Assembly: GCA_002049455.2 (NCBI GenBank)
Contig: KV919059.1
Span: 1-64,000, forward strand
Source: Porphyra umbilicalis
Lineage: Eukaryota; Rhodophyta; Bangiophyceae; Bangiales; Bangiaceae
Direction: 5' to 3'
DNA: 64,000 nt
This document shows positions 1,749 to 59,991 of the stretch, piece by piece. Below the pieces are notes generated by a model. That model did not search any database and was not told the origin of the DNA. It was given only the letters and a program-made list of their open reading frames with translations. Both the position numbers and the translations under genes were made by a program. Position 1 is the stretch's first letter. Each line of letters opens with the position of its first letter.

Positions 1749-3455
1749 ATGGCGCAAGCCAATGGCGGCTCGGCGTCCACCGCCGCCGCGGCGCCCGCCA
1801 CGGGCGCGTCGGGGCGCCAGGCGGGCGCGTCGGAAAAGTCCAAGGACGTGCGGCTGAACAACATCACCGCCGCCAAGGCGGTGGCCGACGCGGTGCGTAC
1901 ATCGCTGGGCCCCCGCGGTATGGACAAGATGATGCAAACGGCGTCTGGGGATGTGCTCATCACCAATGACGGGGCGACCATCCTGGCCAAGATGACCGTC
2001 GAGCACCCCGCCGCCAAGATGCTCGTGCAGCTGTCGCAGGCGCAGGATTCGGTGGCGGGCGACGGCACCACGTCGGTGGTGGTGCTGGCCGGCGCGCTGC
2101 TGCAGGTGTGCACGGGGTTGTTGGCCAAGGGGATCCACCCGACGAGCATTTCCGACGCGTTTGCGACGGCCTCCCGCCTGGCCGACGACGTGCTCAAGGG
2201 CATGTCCTTCTCTGTTGAGCTGGAAGATAGGGAAACGCTGATCAAGGCGGCCTCCACGTCCCTCAACTCCAAGGTCGTCAGCCAGTACGCGGGTCTGCTG
2301 GCGCCCATGGCGGTCGACGCTGTCCTCGCCGTTGCCGTACCACGGCCGCCGACGAGCAGCGCAGCAGAGATTGGGGTCAATGGCGTCGGCTCGACGCCCG
2401 GCACGAGCATTGATGGCGACCTGGTCGTCGACCTCAACAACGTGCGGACCGTGAAGAAGCTGGGCGGCACCATTGACGACACGTGCCTCGTGGACGGTCT
2501 GCTGCTGACGCAGCGCGCGGCGACGGGCGGCTCGGCGGGGGTGCGGCGGGTGGCCAACGCGAAAGTGGCGCTCCTGCAGTTTTGCCTCTCTCCCCCCAAG
2601 ACGGACGTGGAGAACAGCGTCGTCGTGCAGGACTATGCGGCGATGGATCGGATCCTCCGGGAGGAGCGGCAATACATCCTGGGGCTGTGCAAGAAGATCA
2701 AGGCGTCTGGCGCCAACGTGTTGCTCATCCAAAAGAGCATCCTCCGTGACGCGGTGACGGAGCTGAGCCTCCACTTCCTGGCCAAGCTCAAGATCATGGT
2801 CGTCACCGACATTGAGCGCGGGGAGGTGGAGTTTGTGTGCAAGTCCCTCGGCTGCCTGCCCGTCGCGTCCATTGACCAGCTCAAGGCGGACAAGCTCGGC
2901 AAGGTCGACCTCGTTGAGGAGATTTCCCTCGGTTCGGACAAGGCCGTGCGGTTGTCGGGGGTGACGCTGCCGGCGGGCGTGCCCCGCACCGTGTCGCTGC
3001 TCGTGCGTGGCTCCAACAACCTGATGCTCGACGAGGCGGAGCGCTCCCTCCACGACGCCCTGTGCGTCGTACGGTCGCTGGTGCACCGCCGGTTCCTCAT
3101 CCCCGGCGGGGGCGCACCAGAAACGCAGGTGTCGGTGGCGCTGGCCAAGGCGTCCAAGGCCATGTCGGGGATGCAGGCCTACTGTGTCAAGGCGTACGCC
3201 GAGGCCCTCGAGGTCGTACCCTTCACCCTGTCGGAGAACGCGGGGTTGAACCCCATTGAGATTGTGACGGAGCTCCGGCGCCGCCACGCGGCGGGCGAGA
3301 CGACGGCGGGGATCAACGTGCGGAAGGGGGCGGTGACCGACATGGCAGAGGAGAATGTGCTCATGCCCCTGCTCGTCATCTCGTCGGCGTTAGGGCTCGC
3401 GACCGAGAGCGTGCGGATGATCCTCAAGATTGACGACATTGTCATGGTGCGGTAA
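1749..3455 (+). CDS. CCT4: T-complex protein 1 subunit delta (CCT4)
   Basis: One subunit of the cytosolic group II chaperonin TRiC/CCT, which folds actin, tubulin and other proteins in an ATP-driven double ring. From the chosen start the protein is 568 residues, close to the roughly 540 usual for the family. Visible signatures are [11 protein letters not shown] (residues 51-61), NDGATIL (73-79), the ATPase motif GDGTTS (104-109), and near the C-terminus GGGAPE, ENAGLNP and AGINVRKG, ending in [10 protein letters not shown]. Long stretches read like animal and fungal CCT4, which separates it from other CCT subunits. The frame is open upstream to 1521, but that part is Ala/Pro/Ser-rich with no family similarity, so the Met at 1749 (G at +4) is preferred; a Met at 1614 is possible. 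A Ser/Gly-rich insertion of about 20 residues precedes the [10 protein letters not shown] block. No intron. A G run follows the stop. Confidence 0.96.
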
Positions 3456-40589: not shown

Positions 40590-40770
40590 AATTTACTCAA
40601 TGGGTGACCTATTTGAGTCGTGGGGTGCAGCTCGAGGCCCCAAGGGTCGTCCGTCAGCCGTCGGTCGATGGCGGGAGCCATGCGACCGAAAGTCTCTCAC
40701 ACGACTGGTCTAATCTCGTGTGGGATGGCGGTCTTGATCAGAGGCGGGGAGTTTTTATTCCGCGCAGCAC
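40590..40770 (-). pseudogene. Fragment of the retroelement 3' end (copy 3)
   Basis: The minus strand reads IPHEIRPVV, stop, ETFGRMAPAIDRRLTD, matching the complete copy at about 54550-54650 (TPHEFTPLMWEAYGRVAPATDRWLTE) with a Trp codon turned into a stop. DNA similarity is also visible. Only the end of the endonuclease region is recognisable; the rest is lost or too diverged. Confidence 0.7.
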
Positions 40771-51345: not shown

Positions 51346-53266
51346 CGGCCTTCGGCGGCGGCGGCGGCGGCGCCTCTACTGCCGAGACCTGGCGGCCGTG
51401 GCTACTGTGTAGTGGGTTGCCCGTGCGGCCCGCGCACTGCCCAAATTGGGCGCTGCACGAGCGGGGCGGGACAAGGCCGCTCCGCCATCACCGTCCCTGG
51501 ACCCTGTGACGCCACGTGCGCGGAACGCCATTGGACCAGTAACAAGTGCTCCATCAGCAGCGGCGACAGCCACGTCGTGCATTGTGCGGCGAGGCACACA
51601 CCCGGCGCCGTCATGCTCGCGCACGCCGGGCCGCCTGAGGGCCCCCCCCGGCAGATGCCTTGTCGGCAACTGCCCGTCCTTCGGTGCATCGCGCAGATGG
51701 GAGATCCCCCACGCGCGGCATCGCGGCGCTGCGACGCGTGTCGGAGAAGGCACGCGCGTCGATAGCATGCGATGGTGCCACATTTTCAGGGGCACGTTGG
51801 GCGATGTGTTATCTTGTCCCTGCACCAGCCGTGCGCGAAGGTGAGCGCTGGCACGGATGCGCCAGTGAGATGAGTACGGATGCAGATGTAAATATCTGCT
51901 CTGTCACTCGTGGACGTCTCGGGACCAGTCCTCGCACGATTCCCTTCTCATACACCCACAGGGCGGCGCCCGCTTTGAAATGACGCCCCGCCTGCTTTGC
52001 CCCCATGAAATGGTCGGTCCGATTGAACGACCGCCGCCAGGCAGGCTCCACCTACAGCGCATACGAAGCCCGTAAGCTTTCACCCCACACACGCACACTG
52101 CCACCTACGGAGCGGGCACGTCCGGGTGAGCTCATCGCGCCACGCCCCGCCGTTCCCGCAGCTTTATTGTACAGGCGCCGAGGCGGGGAGACGCGCCGGG
52201 GTAGAGCTCAGTCACAGCTCGCCCCCATCCGACGTCCTACTCACGGGTGGGACGCCGAAAGACGGGGGAAGTAGGGCACCGGGAAACATCCCGCGACTCC
52301 CCGGCCACCCCAAGTGCCGGTGTGGGATTAATCACGTTGGTTGAATTACCTGTGTGTTGAGAACGACCGTAGCCAAGCATTAGAGAGAGTTCTATCGCCG
52401 TAGAGGCGAGGAAGAAGGAAGTTTTGTGGAAGGGCATCCGATGGGGAGCCGGGTGGTGCCCACGACGGCGACCCCGGGCCCATGGTGATTTAGTACAAAC
52501 GAGGGCACTGGTCGATCGACCGTCCGATCGCAAGCGATCGCAGTGAGTGCCGGCATGCAGATAGGACAGGCAAAAAAAACAATACAAAAATAAACAAGGC
52601 GGAAGTAACCCCCCAAAGGGCATGCCACAGGCCAATCCACACAGTACGTGGATTTGACAAGTCAAAGGGGGCTACCGATGGCAATCGCCGATTGCAGGCA
52701 AAGACATGCTGCAGCTGGCGCGTGAGAGGGAAGCAGTTGACAGTTCGTCCCCGCGCTGGCGCGCCAACACGGTGAGCGGCGCTGCGCCGGCTGTCCGTGC
52801 ACCGACCGCTGCGGAGGGTAACGCGCGGGTCGGCGGCGTGGCTGGCGGCAAAGTAGCCCCCTCAACCCGGGCCGCCGGGTTGGCTGTATCCGCATATCTG
52901 CGCGCAGCATTGGCGGTCGCCTCCGCCACCATGCGCTGGACGGCGCTTGGCGGTGGCAGGGGTGGTGGCGGCGCAAAAGGCGGGGCGGTGGTACTGCTAG
53001 AACGGGCAGCAGCAGTCAACGCCCCAGCAGCCAAGCCGCCGCAGATGGACGCGGCAGCGCCCCGAGGGGTCGCGGCGGCAGTCAAGTCTCTCCCCACCGA
53101 GCTACAGGCTGGTGCGGCGATGGGGCAGGCGTCGCGCCGGACATTGCAAACCTGTCGCTCGTGCCGCTGGCGCCGTTGCGGCCGATACCACATCCATACC
53201 AGCGCAACCGCGCAATTCCAGTGCATCCTCTACAATCGCGCGCGCGTCGCTACCAGGGGTTGGTGA
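51346..53266. other. Region upstream of retroelement copy 2
   Basis: On the minus strand this should correspond to the 5' part of copy 2. An open frame at 52672-53226 (-) is Ala/Arg/Thr-rich and could be its ORF1 remnant, but I cannot align it to the complete copy, and a plus-strand frame overlaps it. No other gene is seen. Confidence 0.35.
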
Positions 53267-53291: not shown

Positions 53292-54264
53292 GTACAGGAT
53301 ACTCGTATCCATCCGGGATATGGGCTGAGGCTGGAAGCTCGTAATGTTCTCAACTCGGAGACAAAAGAGTAGAGCCGTCCTTATCGGAGCCCTTGTGACA
53401 GAGTAGACAGTACTCAGATCGGACTTGGGACACTCCGCTTTATCCGGTAAGAATATCTGTAAAAGCGATAGCGGCAGTGGCGCCTAGAGATTCATATGCA
53501 GGCGTGCAATCGAATCGTCAAACAAGCCACCTGTCCTATTCGTGCTAGCACAGTTAGCGCAGTCTCCCGAGCTTTGGCCGATCCCGACGAGAAGAACTGT
53601 GCTGAACTGATGTAAGGCAATCATGCATTAGGCCGGATAAGAGCTCTCGGCAAATCAGCAGTTGTGCGGACTGCAGGTTGCTCTTGCTCCCATGGTCCAG
53701 AATTGACAAGATTGCAATACGCATCTCGACTGCTGATGTGAGGCTCTGAAATGGGGCCAGCGAGAACTGGTTCCAGCCTCCAGCTTTTGTGTTTCTGACA
53801 GTCGTGCCGAGGGCACCGGATGGCGACAGAACCAGGGCAGTCGCCTCTCCGGCCAATCTTTCTTTGTTCCCCGCCCCGCTCGCGATGCCAGGAGAGTTGC
53901 GATCGTATCGAATGTCGCGATCGGATTTTATCCTAGATCGTTGCAAATGCTCAATCCGATTTGACTCGAGATCTTCTCCAGAAATTCTCATCTATTCGAT
54001 ACTTGAGCTTTCGCTATTGTCATGAGCCCGGTATGCAATCATTATGTATTTCCATGGATTGTATCGGAGTACTGGCGAAATCTCAGATTCCACCAATCCC
54101 TGGTCGCTACGCGATATGACCGACGTCACAGGCCTCGCAGACGCGGCCCTCTCGCCAAACTCCGGATCGTTTCGCTCCCCCACCACCTTTCGTCATCCCG
54201 CGCGACCGGAGGGTACTCTGCATCCCCCCGCACGTACCTCTCCCGTCAAAAGGAGAGAAGAGTC
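53292..54264. other. Intergenic stretch after the retroelement
   Basis: Contains the dispersed repeat at 53559-53715 and the natural downstream flank of the tRNA target site. A 145-codon frame at 53554-53991 (-) covers the repeat and is not a convincing gene. Confidence 0.4.
53559..53715 (+). repeat. Dispersed repeat, copy B
   Basis: Same repeat as 47833-47990 in direct orientation, about 75% identical by eye. Confidence 0.65.
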
Positions 54265-54307
54265 TAGCACCAGGTGGTTTCGATCCACCGCCGTCTGGGT
54301 TATGGGC
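54265..54307 (-). repeat. Partial tRNA-iMet copy: 43-bp direct repeat at the retroelement 3' edge
   Basis: On the minus strand it begins GCCCATAACCCAGA and ends CACCTGGTGCTA: the anticodon loop, the 3' side of the anticodon stem, variable loop, T arm and acceptor 3' side with discriminator A. It matches 58491-58533 at 42 of 43 positions and similarity stops sharply on both sides. A TTTT run follows 13 nt later (54248-54251), consistent with the original Pol III terminator of the target gene. It has no 5' half, so it is not a tRNA gene. Confidence 0.9.
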
Positions 54308-54312
54308 TCTGT

Positions 54313-57300
54313 TTATCGGAATCTAAGAGACGACACATCCCCTGACCATCTCCCGCGGGAGTTACCCCCTACTCTCCAATTCCAGCCAAATGTGGGCTTA
54401 CACCCTCCACAGTAGCACCCCCCCCCCACTGGGGGTGCCTGCAAAGCAAAGCAGCGGGCGTAACGGTCGGCCACGCCCCGCGCGTGTGATCGCCAGATGG
54501 CGACCGACACGTCACGCAGGAGCCCAGCGCGAACCGCCGCCAGCGTGGGGCCCCGAAACGCCTCTGTCAGCCAACGGTCGGTGGCAGGTGCCACGCGTCC
54601 GTAAGCCTCCCACATGAGTGGTGTAAACTCGTGTGGGGTGGCGGTCGCGGGCAGAGACGGGGAGTACTTGGCCGATTTGGCCGCCTCCCGCGCCTCGCCC
54701 GTGACCACCCGCAGCGGCGCGTCCGCCACCGGCGCCACCACTCGGGCGGCGAACGGCCACGCGACGGAGACGTCGGCCTAGGTGACGACGCCCGACGAGC
54801 CGTTCTTCGCCCGAAGGTCGGGGCGGAGCACGCTGTGGGCGTCGTCACGACCGGTCTCCACCACCACGTCCTCCAAGCCCGGGGCGCGGCGCAGCGCCGC
54901 CGCCACCAACCCCACGATCGGGTGGTGGAGGCGGGCGCGCCGTAGCTCCTGCTGCGGGCAGGTAAAGAGGAGGTGGCGGCCGTCCGAGTCAACGTCGGCG
55001 CCGCAGCGGTAGCGCGGCGCCGGCGGCGTGGAACGCGGCGCCACGTCAAGCCACAGGCGCACCGCCGCCCGCATGGCGGCGCCCGAAAAATGGCGACCCC
55101 CCCCACACCCGACGCGGGCAGCGCAGAGAGCCAGAGCGAGGCACGGTGGCCCCGGCACGCGGCCAGGCCCGCCCAAGCCCACAACGACAGCTCCGCATAC
55201 TGCCACGCCCGCCGTGCGGCGTGCGCGGGTACAGAGAGGTCGCGCTACACGCGCTGCTTCAGGCAGTCGCCCGTCCCCTCCACGATCACCCGCCACAATG
55301 GCACCGAGTGTAGCGCTGGGCCGTGTTGGCCATTGGCCGGATGCAGGGTCGCTCCAGGGCCACACTCGAGGTCGGGGGGGGGGGGGGTGGCAGAGCATCG
55401 CCCGAGCGCCGGGGCGGCGGCCACAGCAGCCCCGTGTTGGGCGCTACGGCGTGCGCGGTGGCGGCGTCGCGCAGGTCGAGCAGGTCGCCACACAGGGCGG
55501 CCACGGCTGGGGGGACCGGCGGTGGGGCCGCCGCCGCCGCCGACGCCGCCGCAAGGGGGCGAGGCTGTTCGCTGTCGGCCGGCGGCGGCGGCGGCGCGGG
55601 TATCGAACGCAGCCTTCGTATGGCCGAGTGACCCGCGGTCGCGCTGCCTCGGCGGGGGGGGCTCAAATCGGGCAGAATCGCCCCCCACCGCCGGCGGAAC
55701 CGACACATTCGGAATGACGGCGGCGGTGGGCGTGGCCGACACCCCAGTTGCCCACGGGAGCGCCGCGCCGGCGGTAGCGCCCCGCGCTGGCGGGCCACGA
55801 GACACGGGCGGGGCCAGCGCAGCAGGAGGGGCGACCCGCGCAGCTCGAGGCCGGCACGGGGCAGCAGGGCAGTGAGGCAGTGGGGCGGCTGGCGCCACCC
55901 GGCGCGGAGGACTGCCTTCGTCCCGGCCAGAACGAAAAGAGGGGCAAGGACCACCGGCAAGACAGCCCCCCGCCTCCCTACCCGCACCAGGCAGCCGCAG
56001 CAGCGCGTCCGCGGACGCTCGGAGGGTGGGGGAGTAGGACCGCCCGGCCCGCAGCGCGTCCACCCACGAGGCGAGGGCGGCCGCAGGCGCAACAGCAGTC
56101 CGCCTCCCGATTCCTAGCCCCCCCATCGCGACGGGGAGGGCAGCACGCGCGACATCCGCCGCCTGCGTGGCGGCGTCATCACGCGCGTCACACAGAAGGA
56201 CACAGAGCGCGCGCTGCGCCCCGCGGTCGACGGCGCCGGCGAGCTTGGCGCCTTCGGCCAGCGGCAGGTCGCGTAGCAAATAGATGGCCTGCGGCTTCGC
56301 GCACAAGCGCAGCAGAAGCAACTGCACATGCAGCGCGTCTGGCGGCAAGGCCGCGATGGCGTCGCACAGGGCCACCTGCTCGGTAGCGAGCCCGTCGACG
56401 GCCGCCGCCAAATAGGCTGGGGTGCCCAGGGGCACCGAGAACTGTGTGAGGCCCTCTGCGTGCCACTGGGCGGTCCACCTGGGTGGTGCCCCCCCCCCCG
56501 CCGGCGACCACCCCACGCACTTGGGTGGCTCCAGCACCGCGTCCGCCTCCCCCTCCAGCCGTGCGGCGCCGTCCAGCACGCGCGCAGCGCGCCCGGCGGC
56601 CGTCCGACGACCACGTCGTCGTGGAACGCCCGCACGAGCACCGACGGGTGCTCGACGCGGATCCGCTCCAGCAGTTGCCACATGGCGGCCGCGTGCAGTA
56701 GCGGGCCAAGCGGATCGCCCTGCTGGGCGCCCCGCTAGGCGTGCAGCCACCAGCGCGGCGGCGTTGTAGGGAACACACACGCGGCCGCGGCTGCGGGCAC
56801 AGCGCCGCGCGCCCCCGGCTGTGGCGGTGGCTCGGCAGCATCCGCCGCCCACCCGAATACACAGAGACCCTCCCCCCCGTACATTCAGGTAAGGTACGGT
56901 GTGAGGAGGGAGAGGGAGCGGTGGAGCACCGCGGCCGCCGCAGACCGATAAACAAGGTTAAAGGCATTTCTGAAGTCTAGCTGCAGGACCGCGTGGTCGG
57001 GGTGTTGGGCAAGGTGCGCTGCCAACTCGTGGAGAATTCGCTCACACGCGTTGGCGACGCCCACACCCAGCTGCACTGGGGCCAGCAGGTCCGCCGCAGC
57101 GGCACGCGCTGTCCCCGCCAGGGCCGACGCGGCAAGCTTGCGCAGGGCCTTCGGCATGCCAATAGGCCGGAGGCCCGGCATCCCGTCCGCGCCCACGCCG
57201 CCAGGCTTGGCCAGCAGCAGAAGGTCTGCGCCGGCCAGCGCGTGCGTTGCGACGGCGGGCACGCGCGTCGTCGCCGCGGCGCTGGTGAGCAGCACGCCGA

Positions 57301-57850
57301 CGCTGAACAGAGCGTCACGGCCAGCCTCCCCCGGCGCCCACAGGTGCTCCATACCTTCGAGCCGACGGCCAAGCTGTGCGCGCTTGGCCGTCAGGCGGCG
57401 GCGGCACAGGTCGGCCGCCATCGCCGCGGCCGCCTCCGCCGACAGCTGGCGGTGGCGGACAGGCCCCAGCACGGCGGGGCTCCACGAGGACACGCCGTCC
57501 AGCAGCGTGAGCCCCGCCGCCGCCGGCAGCCCCCGCACTGCCGACGCAAACGCTGCCGCCGCGGACACCTCGAGGGTGACCGCGGCGGTCGACCCGAAGC
57601 GGTCCAAGTCGACGAGACGGTCGACGTGGACCCCCGTCAAGTCGGCCACGAGGCCGCGCAGGCAGTGCGCGCGCGCCTCACGGCCGACCCCGGACACCAA
57701 CACCGTCGTGAGGGTGATGGGGGTGGGCGGGTCCCCACCCCGCCCCCCGCCACCAGCACGCAAAGCAACCGCCGCCGACACTCGCGCGGCCGCCGCCGCG
57801 GCCGCCCCAGCCTCGGTGGCCGCCGCCGGCGGCACCCCACCAGCCGCCAA
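54313..57850 (-). pseudogene. Retroelement polyprotein: reverse transcriptase plus restriction-like endonuclease (frames broken)
   Basis: The frame 57850-56885 has a small alpha/beta domain (TTVLVSGVG...), then KPGGVGADGMPGLRPIGMPKAL and RT motif A, QLDFRNAFNLVY (56948-56983). After frame changes near a G run at about 56870, GAQQGDPLGPLLHA and motif C, AFHDDVVVG (about 56602-56632), follow; another shift leads to PPKCVGWSPAG, FSVPLGTPAYL, YLLRDLPLAEG and LPVAMGGLGIG (to about 56050). Further on, C-G-x8-H-x4-C (about 54955-55015), then LRPDL, stop (TAG near 54778), ADVSV and AAKSAKYSP resemble the CCHC and R/KPD...D/E motifs of restriction-like endonucleases. The RT catalytic Asp residues and the RPD are intact, but at least three frameshifts and one stop interrupt it; two breaks lie near G or C runs. 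It ends near 54313. Confidence 0.8.
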
Positions 57851-58270
57851 GACGCGCCGCCCGACAGGCGCCGCCCCCCCCCGTCCGCCGTCGCCGCCCC
57901 GCCTGCCGCCGCGCCGCCCGCCGTCGACGCGTTGGCGGTCGGCCGGCGGCGGCCACGCCGGACGTCAGTGGTCCAGCCGCCGCCGTCGGCCACTCTACCA
58001 CGTGGCACCCCCCTCCCCTCAGGGGAGGCAGAAAACACAGGGGCCCCGGCCAGCCCAGCCACAGCACCGCCAGCACCAACAGACACCGCCGCCGGTGTCG
58101 GGGGGAGGGGGGAAGAAGACCCCCCAGGTCGGGGGGCGGGGGGAACGCGATCCCCCCCCGCGGCGGAGAGGACGGCAGTGTCCCCCACCGGTGGCGGCGG
58201 CAGGACACCCGCCGCCGCCGACGAAGACGACGGCGGCGCTAATCGCAACGCCGCGCAATCATTGGCCCGT

Positions 58271-58318
58271 ATTAGGCGAACGAGCGAATCAAAGAGTCTG
58301 ATTCGCTCGTCGCTAATT
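58271..58318. repeat. Long hairpin near the retroelement 5' end
   Basis: A 12-bp perfect stem, ACGAGCGAATCA / TGATTCGCTCGT, with a 7-nt loop. The stem extends outward with ATTAG-G-CGA / TCGCTAAT to about 20 bp with one bulge. It lies about 170-220 nt into the element. Confidence 0.8.
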
Positions 58319-58473
58319 CGGACCCCGATCGCGACGCCGACGATCGCAACGACACCGCGCGCCGCCGCCTCAAACGTCGCCCGTTCCACCTCCCCCGCAC
58401 CTCCCCCCGCAATCCCGCGCGACAGGGGGGCGCCCCGCACCCCCCCGCACCCTGCCACACGCACCTGGCCGAC

Positions 58474-58478
58474 AAAAA
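58474..58478 (-). terminator. T5 run, likely Pol III terminator of tRNA-iMet
   Basis: TTTTT on the minus strand, 12 nt after the tRNA 3' end and, if the duplication marks the insertion point, inside the first 17 nt of the retroelement. The TTTT behind the partial tRNA copy (54248-54251) would be the terminator of the uninterrupted locus. Confidence 0.6.
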
Positions 58479-58490
58479 TGAGACAGCTTG

Positions 58491-58574
58491 TAGCACCAGG
58501 TGGTTTCGATCCACCGCCCTCTGGGTTATGGGCCCAGCGCGCTTTAGCGAATTGAACCACTGCGCTATGGTGCT
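58491..58574 (-). tRNA. Initiator tRNA-Met (CAT) with a 12-nt D-loop insertion
   Basis: Acceptor AGCACCA pairs with TGGTGCT, with discriminator A and first pair A-T, an initiator feature. The anticodon arm CTGGG-CCCATAA-CCCAG with C33 and three G-C pairs, and the T arm GGTGG-ATCGAAA-CCACC with A54 and A60, are the eukaryotic initiator hallmarks. The A box TAGCGCAGTGG and B box GTGGATCGAAACC fit Pol III consensus. The D arm GCGC/GCGC has a 19-nt loop instead of 7: relative to canonical AGTGG-AA, TTCAATTCGCTA is inserted after the A box. It could be a D-loop expansion, an intron-like insert or a mark of a decaying gene. CCA is not encoded, as expected. A retroelement follows directly. Confidence 0.85.
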
Positions 58575-59076
58575 CGCATCTGATGACAACCAGCCATACG
58601 GATACACTGTATCACAAAATGCTGTAATGGCTCTCTCCATGAAATCGTCAGCTTGAATAGCGATTCTTATTTTAGTCAATCTGATGTGATCTTCGGATAA
58701 TTCTAGCTGTTTCGATTACATGTTCGACTGCTTCTGAATATCCTGCATTTCGGTTAGGCACTGCGAGTCAAGAATCGGACACATGTATAAGTTTGGATTT
58801 TCTTTTCTGAAATGTTCGTGTGTGGCATATCCTACAGCACATACATAAAATGGCTGAGCAGGAAAGAAAATATTGACTATTTCGGACTTACAATGGGATG
58901 CTTTGTATGTACGGTCGTCGAGGAGCAGAGTGGAGAGGTGCCAAGCCCACGCAGCTTGCATTGCAGCCCTATACATCTTTGCGAAGACGGCATTTACGGC
59001 GAAAATGTCGACGTCCCCCTACTCGTCCGGCTTGTCCCCAGTGTATTCCTGCACCGCTGCCACAGTTCCCTTCTTA
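58575..59076. other. Intergenic DNA between tRNA-iMet and MsrA
   Basis: AT-richer sequence holding the upstream region of the tRNA gene and the 3' UTR of MsrA. No gene is seen. Confidence 0.5.
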
Positions 59077-59991
59077 TCACCCCTCCCCGTCACTGACCGA
59101 AGGTAAAGGTAGTGCCAATGGAGGTACGTACACAGTATTGGCGTTGGTCGGACACGTCGCCCATGGGTTTTCTGCAAGGTACTGCTGGTGGTACAGCTCC
59201 GCATTGTAAAATGGGTACACCGCTGCGTCGGCGACGGCGCTGACCACCGCATCGCCTTCCACGCCACCGGGGGGGCGCGAGCGACGGCGACCGTGGCCGC
59301 TGCCGCCCTCTCCGCTCGACGTGGACACGGCCACGGCCGCCTGTGACGTGTCGCCTTCTGGTGACGCCCGTGCCTCCCCTTGCTGCTTGGTCACTGGTGC
59401 CGACGCCGCCGCTGCCGCCGCCGCCGCCGCCTCCTGCCGCTTCCGCAGTAGCGCGTCAAAATGTGCCAGACGCTCCCCGGCCGCCACCCGCTGGACGGCA
59501 CCTACACAAAACACAACCGACCGATACTGCACGCCTGTGTCCCCCCCTTGCCGGTTGACCGTCGTCGGGTCGTGCGAGGCGAGCCACACATCGACGGCCG
59601 CGGCGTAGGGTAACACATTCGGATCAATGACGACCTTGACGACTTCGGCAAAGCCCGCTTCGCCGGCGCAAACCGCGCGGTAGGAGGGGTTGACGACATC
59701 GTCGTCACCCCCCTGAAATCCCACGGCGGTTGTGACAACCCCGGGGGTGCCCCAAAAGGTGCGCTCGAGGGACCAAAAACAGCCCCCTCCAAAGTAGGCA
59801 ATTTCATAGCCGCGTGCGAGGTAGTGGGCATCTGCGTGGATGGGCGAGCCAAGCACCCGGTGGGTCTCCAACTTCAGAGTTGGGAAAAGCGGGGGGGGTG
59901 GGGAAAGCGCCGAAAAGAACTGCAGGCGGTCAAGCCGCAGTACGCTTGCGTCCAGGGTGAGTGGTCGGGGGCACACACGGGTCGGTCGCAC
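59077..59991 (-). CDS. MSRA: Peptide methionine-(S)-sulfoxide reductase MsrA
   Basis: Reduces methionine-S-sulfoxide in proteins, using an active-site Cys regenerated by thioredoxin. The 304-residue product has the catalytic GGGCFWSLE with C71, then VGFQGG, PSYRAVCAGEAGFAEVVKV, the HDPTTVNRQGGDTGVQYRS block and, near the C-terminus, YNAELYHQQYLAENP. All core MsrA motifs are present, and the order is standard. The N-terminus up to about 60 is Leu/Pro/Arg-rich and could be a mitochondrial targeting sequence. An Ala, Gly, Ser and Arg-rich insertion of roughly 75 residues separates the core from the YHQQYL block, longer than usual in the family. The C-terminus after CPTNANTVY differs from typical MsrA and contains no obvious resolving Cys. 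The start at 59991 is the only Met before the core. Divergent from glycerol kinase. Confidence 0.94.
   Translation of the reverse strand: MRPTRVCPRPLTLDASVLRLDRLQFFSALSPPPPLFPTLKLETHRVLGSPIHADAHYLARGYEIAYFGGGCFWSLERTFWGTPGVVTTAVGFQGGDDDVVNPSYRAVCAGEAGFAEVVKVVIDPNVLPYAAAVDVWLASHDPTTVNRQGGDTGVQYRSVVFCVGAVQRVAAGERLAHFDALLRKRQEAAAAAAAAASAPVTKQQGEARASPEGDTSQAAVAVSTSSGEGGSGHGRRRSRPPGGVEGDAVVSAVADAAVYPFYNAELYHQQYLAENPWATCPTNANTVYVPPLALPLPSVSDGEG

Follow-up and report, generated by a model that had tools for sequence, protein, structure and literature searches.

A decayed retroelement behind an initiator tRNA-Met gene of the red alga Porphyra umbilicalis: probable insertion with target-site duplication by a lineage specialised for tRNA genes

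Why does the 3' half of a tRNA gene stand at both ends of a retroelement in a red algal genome? The locus lies in the first 64,000 nucleotides (positions 1 to 64,000 of the forward strand, "the window") of contig KV919059.1, here named C299, in the Porphyra umbilicalis assembly GCA_002049455.2. On the minus strand of the window an initiator tRNA-Met (tRNA-iMet) gene is followed by a 4,183-bp element and then by a second copy of the tRNA 3' half. We concluded that the element is very probably an inactive copy of a non-long-terminal-repeat (non-LTR) lineage of the restriction-like-endonuclease (RLE) type, specialised for tRNA genes and inserted with a target-site duplication. The analysis covered one assembly (83.8 Mb in 665 contigs) and no reads. 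Genome match counts for the tRNA, reverse transcriptase (RT) and RLE queries are lower bounds, and tallies are built on the matches listed; C and L numbers are our own labels.

The repeat search gave a direct repeat of 43 nt with sharp ends, formed by positions 58491-58533 of the tRNA gene and by 54265-54307 (minus strand). The latter piece begins with the final anticodon-stem base on the 5' side of tRNA-iMet and ends with its discriminator base. The two copies agree at 42 of 43 positions (98%) in the same orientation, and 4,183 bp (58490-54308) separate them, just as an earlier note on this DNA had described. The tRNA gene itself (58491-58574, minus strand), the target in our reading, stands whole upstream of the element. 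Its 84 nt consist of a 72-nt tRNA, whose A1:U72 and CAU we take to be initiator features, and a 12-nt intron-like insert in the D-loop (58544-58555, minus strand). The earlier note held that the insertion left the tRNA intact, and judged by sequence it did, the D-loop insert included. Rfam scored the gene at 32.2 bits (RF00005; cut-off 29 bits), and ARAGORN missed it both with and without introns. The sister copies scored 54.6 (C488), 54.6 (C50:314k) and 28.8 bits (C50:291k), the insert-free 72-nt gene on C180 scored 65.5 bits, and the C15 copy was absent from the Rfam listing.

Such inserts are present in other nuclear tRNA genes as well. They were seen in the D-loop of tRNA-iMet genes on C299, C50, C15 and C488, of tRNA-Gly on C147, of tRNA-Ile at C57:70585, C169 and C122, and of tRNA-Asp on C394, C36, C24, C438, C179, C188, C334 and C491. 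Inserts in the T-loop occur on C169 and C122 (besides the D-loop) and on C137 (tRNA-Asp, T-loop only). All are intron-like and vary in sequence while the tRNA parts agree; insert-free copies are the tRNA-iMet of C180, a tRNA-Ile on C507 and a tRNA-Gly on C17. Another red alga, Cyanidioschyzon merolae, is also known to have tRNA introns in D-loops and T-loops (PMC3978253).

The tRNA-iMet query gave at least eight matches in the whole genome, the 43-bp window piece among them (E = 3.1e-13). At three of these loci (window, C50 and C15) an element 5' end abuts the same tRNA base, and at two of them (window and C50) the same element 3' end abuts the tRNA half. C50 carries a whole tRNA-iMet gene, a 6.45-kb element, a 48-bp tRNA-iMet match and the 5' end of a second, broken element; on C15 a tRNA-iMet gene is followed by a window-type element 5' end. 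No window-type element was seen adjoining the C488 gene, the second C50 gene or the C180 gene. In the window, the decayed 5' end of an earlier insertion from the same family (54177-54264, minus strand) follows directly on the 43-bp piece, with 75% identity over 57 nt (54177-54233, E 1.4e-6) and four Ts at +14. A further remnant of an older C50-type element lies at 52769-52986 (minus strand) and is 69% identical to the first C50 element across 218 nt (E 7.5e-21). With these remnants beyond the 43-bp piece, the window tRNA gene has probably been hit at least twice. To judge from such arrangements, occupied genes are struck repeatedly, and each new element lands between the tRNA and the older element.

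The window element (54308-58490, minus strand) runs in the tRNA's direction, with its 5' end at 58490 and its 3' end at 54308, both set by the tRNA pieces. It has its 5' end in common with C15 (93% over 1,138 bp) and its 3' end with C50 (92% over 261 bp). Sequence comparison identified an open frame at 56885-57850 (minus strand) in which a conserved ORF1-type segment is fused to the start of the RT domain; Pfam gave no match for the window open reading frame (ORF) that holds this segment. The segment, ∼130 amino acids long, lies at 57352-57800 (minus strand) and also at 1673-2053 of the tRNA-Gly element on C210. ORF1 and RT are joined at an internal-deletion junction (57352-57358, minus strand), where the N-terminal zinc-finger stretch is missing (∼2.8 kb in the C210 element). 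Positions 1-1133 of the window element match C15 (93%), and from position 1139 onward it matches the C50 element from its position 3008, the RT start. In the C210 element, which is 7,891 bp long between its tRNA and its piece, the two segments joined in the window copy sit at 2053 and 4820. Since the C15 match ends at the deletion point, C15 does not show the deletion.

RT motifs, to which the earlier note had pointed, were found (LRPIG, DFRNAFN and FHDDVVV), though in a broken frame: the RT core with FHDDVVV (56117-56734, minus strand) lies in one of several frames, and frameshifts follow it. The RLE-type C-terminus (54436-55098, minus strand), with the motif RPDL..D..K.AKY, is 54% identical over 221 amino acids to an open copy on C596 and contains an in-frame stop at 54778-54780. 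The last stretch (54308-54382, minus strand) includes a GC-rich hairpin of 4-5 pairs that aligns across subfamilies. Among the 22 sequences aligned, single pairs are broken in up to three and there is no two-sided covariation; we therefore do not claim the hairpin as a proven RNA structure. The internal deletion, the frameshifts and the in-frame stop mark the window copy as dead.

The class assignment was read mostly from relatives. RVT_1 was detected by Pfam in 9 of 12 of them (best E 6.5e-6), the L028 copy reaching 20.2 bits, under the curated 29.6; Pfam on the window ORFs alone gave no RT hit. In open copies (such as L021, L024 and L028) two Cys/His patterns, seen by eye, precede the RT as N-terminal zinc fingers, and the window copy has none because of its deletion. 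The RPDL..D..K.AKY motif and a Cys/His knuckle, read by eye, are common to the subfamilies and would suit a C-terminal PD-(D/E)XK endonuclease preceded by such a knuckle; the first Cys is replaced by Tyr in the window and C50 copies. The class proposed in the earlier note is thus supported by motif; Pfam and a PDB profile search gave no match for the endonuclease-like end. Searches of the PDB by sequence and by profile returned no RT or RLE relative, only chance-level hits (E 2 and 1.3). No long terminal repeats were found in 53500-59500. End-to-end direct repeats there consist of the tRNA piece plus the neighbouring 57-nt similarity of the older 5' end, the others being short and GC-rich. An LTR element primed by tRNA-iMet was considered and rejected: terminal repeats are lacking, and the piece is no short primer site but the tRNA 3' half, oriented as in the target.

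The window element belongs to a larger family. Its RT gave at least 124 genome matches and its RLE end at least 80. We merged 80 RLE hits into 76 element 3' ends and compared them with the matches of four tRNA queries (Asp, Ile, Gly and iMet). A tRNA 3' piece on the same strand was found 4-236 bp downstream of 30 of the 76 ends (Asp 13, Ile 10, Gly 5, iMet 2), and an upstream tRNA piece at none of the 76. The 3' flanks that were read contain pieces of tRNA-Gly(CCC), tRNA-Ile(AAU) and tRNA-Asp(GUC). An Rfam scan of 26 flanks gave a tRNA match in 7, two of which fell short of the gathering score. A further two flanks carry a Gly and an Ile piece that came to light in another way, one contains a complete 5S ribosomal RNA (rRNA) gene, and 16 have neither, several of which run into satellites. 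The 5S gene (79.7 bits) is in the 3' flank of a related element at C241:103500-104110 (L085), pointing to a possible 5S-targeted subfamily. The 3' ends of another subfamily meet tandem satellite repeats on C9, C119, C260 and C226 (L050, L053, L083, L084, L086 and L090). Some tRNA-Asp elements (L103, L080 and L108) have a tRNA-Gly-type 3' end (cf. L051), which hints at recombination or a target switch.

All element 5' ends that were read begin directly after the last tRNA base. The 3' junction lies at about base 8 in tRNA-Asp and near that in one Ile group, at about base 13 in tRNA-Gly, and in the anticodon arm in tRNA-iMet (base 31 in the window, ∼29 on C50) and the other Ile group. The duplication measures 43 bp at the window tRNA-iMet and roughly 80-95 bp, insert included, in tRNA-Asp. 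Each subfamily meets its tRNA at a fixed point although the element 3' ends differ between subfamilies.

Is the downstream piece a copy of the local target, or does it belong to the element as a tRNA-like 3' tail copied from RNA, with insertion at the tRNA 3' end and no duplication? The tRNA-Asp genes allow the two to be told apart, since the sequence of their D-loop insert differs from locus to locus and acts as a barcode. A script parsed 20 of the 23 Asp loci given (9 whole genes and 11 pieces); the unparsed loci were C271:30k and C24:261k, which are off the pattern, and C457. Where a piece has a whole gene on its own contig, its insert was nearest to that gene in six of six cases (three on C394, two on C36, one on C24), at 0-1 edits, the next of the nine whole genes being at 3 or more. 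No whole gene accompanies the other five pieces on their contigs. Those at C271:5.8k and 12k are identical to C438, and C628:3.9k, C271:21k and C628:13.6k are nearest to C179 at 1, 3 and 6 edits, respectively.

The elements themselves are sorted differently. An RT tree of 28 rows was built from 30 loci, one having been dropped for length (109 amino acids) and C15 having no match over the RT core. It contains Gly (100/97), Ile (100/100) and iMet (88/81) groups and a group of Asp elements together with C187, whose target is unread (93/90). The 21 rows of these groups were separated from the remaining 7 with a support of 92/92, below the program's 95. Elements of C394 are divided between two Asp subclades (96/91 and 99/99), and both subclades also include elements of other contigs. 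With local barcodes in the pieces and elements mixed among loci, we concluded that element and tRNA piece have separate histories, as target-site duplication would lead one to expect, and that the pieces are such duplications. Together with the recurrence of the window junctions at C50 and C15, this bears out the proposal of the earlier note that the element entered tRNA-iMet with a long duplication.

Several observations weigh against this conclusion. C271 (L100, L081, L080 and L101) shows two barcodes on one contig, the pieces at 5.8k and 12k pointing to C438 and that at 21k (30k by eye) to C179; C271 has no whole tRNA-Asp gene of its own among the matches listed, so that recombination between loci or an assembly join is needed. 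On C57 (L066 and L067) an 18-nt insert is present in the D-loop of the whole tRNA-Ile gene at 70,585 but missing from the 71-bp piece behind the first element (78,705), and likewise from the other 71-bp Ile pieces (21k, 37k and 46k read; 29k via a 100% match). The C15 tRNA-iMet gene has a damaged anticodon loop, the degenerate Asp piece at C271:30k has no T-run within 45 nt, and the RLE identity is a reading of motifs only. Finally, 46 of the 76 ends have none of the four tRNA pieces. As to whether full copies also sit at random sites, a point raised in the earlier note, the iMet-type ends that we found sit at tRNA-iMet genes, but the wider family uses other targets.

Both the two barcodes of C271 and the insert-free Ile pieces, which look as if they came from spliced RNA or were carried along, would suit a tail belonging to the element. 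For C57 we would guess at exchange with the neighbouring insert-free array, copying from spliced RNA being the alternative; exchange between the two C57 arrays could account for the Ile exception. A carried tail is difficult to reconcile with the six testable Asp pieces, each of which agrees with the gene on its contig although the elements are not sorted by locus, or with subfamilies whose 3' ends differ and which nevertheless join the tRNA at a fixed point. We consider it improbable, though it is the strongest of the rival explanations.

Alternatively, a unit of tRNA and element might have been multiplied in tandem or by unequal crossing over, with at most the first insertion being a transposition. 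This could have produced the arrays with a period of ∼8 kb on C57, C210 and C394, in which neighbours within a locus share 5' end variants (by eye). C394, however, has two RT subclades behind the same tRNA, and one 5' junction is shared by the single insertions at the window, C50 and C15. Crossing over may multiply copies, but the junctions do not arise from it, and as a general account it is very unlikely. Even less likely is that a circular DNA copy recombined, site-specifically or homologously, with the tRNA 3' end in the manner of bacterial islands, of which a tRNA 3' end at both element ends is a hallmark. A circle from another locus would leave unlike inserts at the two ends, whereas the testable Asp cases match; moreover, Pfam found RVT_1 and no integrase in the element frames scanned (some frames only). 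An assembly artefact joining unrelated contigs at a repeat is the least credible explanation. Such repeats do break assemblies, some arrays lie near contig ends (C36 and C628) and C271 could be a join, but the junctions reappear on numerous contigs, in either orientation and for four families of tRNA.

How does a tRNA gene tolerate an element beginning at its last base? A run of five Ts at 58474-58478 (minus strand), starting at +13 after the tRNA, is a candidate replacement for the RNA polymerase III (Pol III) terminator. Behind exact tRNA 3' ends, whether the locus was occupied or not, each of the 41 distinct sequences has four or more Ts, the run beginning between +9 and +32; looser matching of tRNA ends gave a T-run in 42 of 43 (+7 to +36), the sole miss being the C271:30k piece. 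As a background, 2.8-3.9% of the 40-nt windows taken from three element bodies contain four or more Ts in a row. From +1 onward the 5' sequence is common to occupied loci of a given target, and the trailers behind unoccupied genes are mostly different ones (in part similar for Ile), which is why we assigned the T-run to the element. It probably replaces the lost Pol III terminator. Because of the T-run, transcription of the element by Pol III read-through from the tRNA promoter is unlikely.

We propose that insertion with target-site duplication proceeded as follows, a course with which the duplications and the precise element 3' ends agree. Protein from an intact relative, acting in trans, or made before the copy decayed, would nick the tRNA gene internally on its lower strand (in the present case around tRNA bases 29-31), and the nicked end would be the primer from which the element RNA is reverse-transcribed. 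On the upper strand the cut would fall after the last tRNA base, and repair of the ∼43-base stagger would duplicate the tRNA 3' half. The whole tRNA gene would stay upstream, open to further hits, so that elements could stack behind it with tRNA pieces between them. The first 10-20 bases of the element (to about +38 in Gly elements) would supply the T-run in place of the lost Pol III terminator. More tentatively, and with more doubt than belief, we suggest that the elements are commensals of tRNA loci: the duplication would rebuild the gene, the first bases replace the terminator, tRNA 3' processing by RNase Z free the 5' end of the element RNA, and the arrays be dated stacks of insertions. 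As the element starts exactly after the tRNA's last base, RNase Z could excise its RNA from a longer transcript and thereby set the RNA 5' end, a role that falls to a ribozyme in R2 (PMC3414825).

Elsewhere in the window, a peptide methionine sulfoxide reductase gene (59077-59991, minus strand; Pfam PMSR, E 9.8e-39) adjoins the tRNA, and a weak leftover of a related endonuclease end lies at 40646-40768 (minus strand; 51% identity, one stop, E 4.4e-5). When viral contigs were scanned for the RT profile, 64 pattern matches came up, but no relative was confirmed among them. Contig C665 has 10 of the 11 phycobilisome-family matches, many tRNAs and a RuBisCO large chain for which 8bdb scored best in the PDB (1,002 bits), presumably a red algal RuBisCO of form ID. 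Its ApcE fragment is closer to chains that we take to be cyanobacterial than to red algal ones, at odds with the RuBisCO result. In our view the RuBisCO result and the tRNA density outweigh ApcE, and we take C665 to be plastid.

Site-specific non-LTR elements are few, and they now serve as templates for RNA-driven gene insertion. Four tRNA specificities in one red algal clade, some with long open frames, would permit a direct comparison of how target choice changes between relatives. The D-loop inserts are natural barcodes for what an insertion copies, which is rarely possible, and the 5' T-run suggests how an essential low-copy Pol III gene survives repeated insertion.

R2, which inserts at a precise site in 28S rRNA genes by target-primed reverse transcription, encodes a single polyprotein with zinc fingers, RT and RLE. 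The red algal elements resemble it in their precise site, in a single polyprotein with zinc fingers, RT and a putative RLE, and presumably in their priming; R2 interrupts its 28S gene, whereas here the tRNA gene is restored. Yeast Ty3 and Dictyostelium TRE5-A also use tRNA genes as landing sites but land upstream of the gene, unlike the present elements, which enter it and rebuild it. Closer parallels are the elements related to NeSL, of which NeSL-1_TV comes, we assume, from a trichomonad. As described in PMC4640811, RLE elements reside in genes for tRNA-Pro (NeSL-1_TV), tRNA-Arg (LIN15_SM) and tRNA-Glu (LIN25_SM). Like the red algal ones, these are RLE-type non-LTR elements specific for tRNA genes with several targets within one lineage; they differ in their tRNAs and hosts (planaria for the LIN families; PMC4640811). 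Utopia, in U2 small nuclear RNA (snRNA) genes, is likewise said there to have a low-copy small-RNA target, with several lineages kept in U2, element-U2 tandem arrays in Phytophthora, and zinc fingers and RT followed by a zinc finger and RLE. It differs in its target and in its duplication: arthropods show none, and in reptiles it is 20 bp long (PMC4640811). The red algal duplications measure 43 bp in the window and ∼80-95 bp, insert included, in tRNA-Asp.

Since the tRNA-Pro, -Arg and -Glu elements and the Utopia-U2 arrays are published (PMC4640811), tRNA targeting and arrays as such are known, and the novelty that the earlier note claimed for this target shrinks to the initiator tRNA at most. 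Our search of the open-access literature, which leaves most subscription papers outside, turned up neither an initiator-tRNA target nor tRNA-targeted RLE elements in red algae; the set of targets and the repeated use of the same genes look new. A similar division of targets has arisen among the Dada DNA transposons, which have separate families for individual tRNA genes and for 5S rRNA genes and use snRNA genes too (PMC8869645); these are DNA transposons that move by a transposase, in contrast to the retroelements described here.

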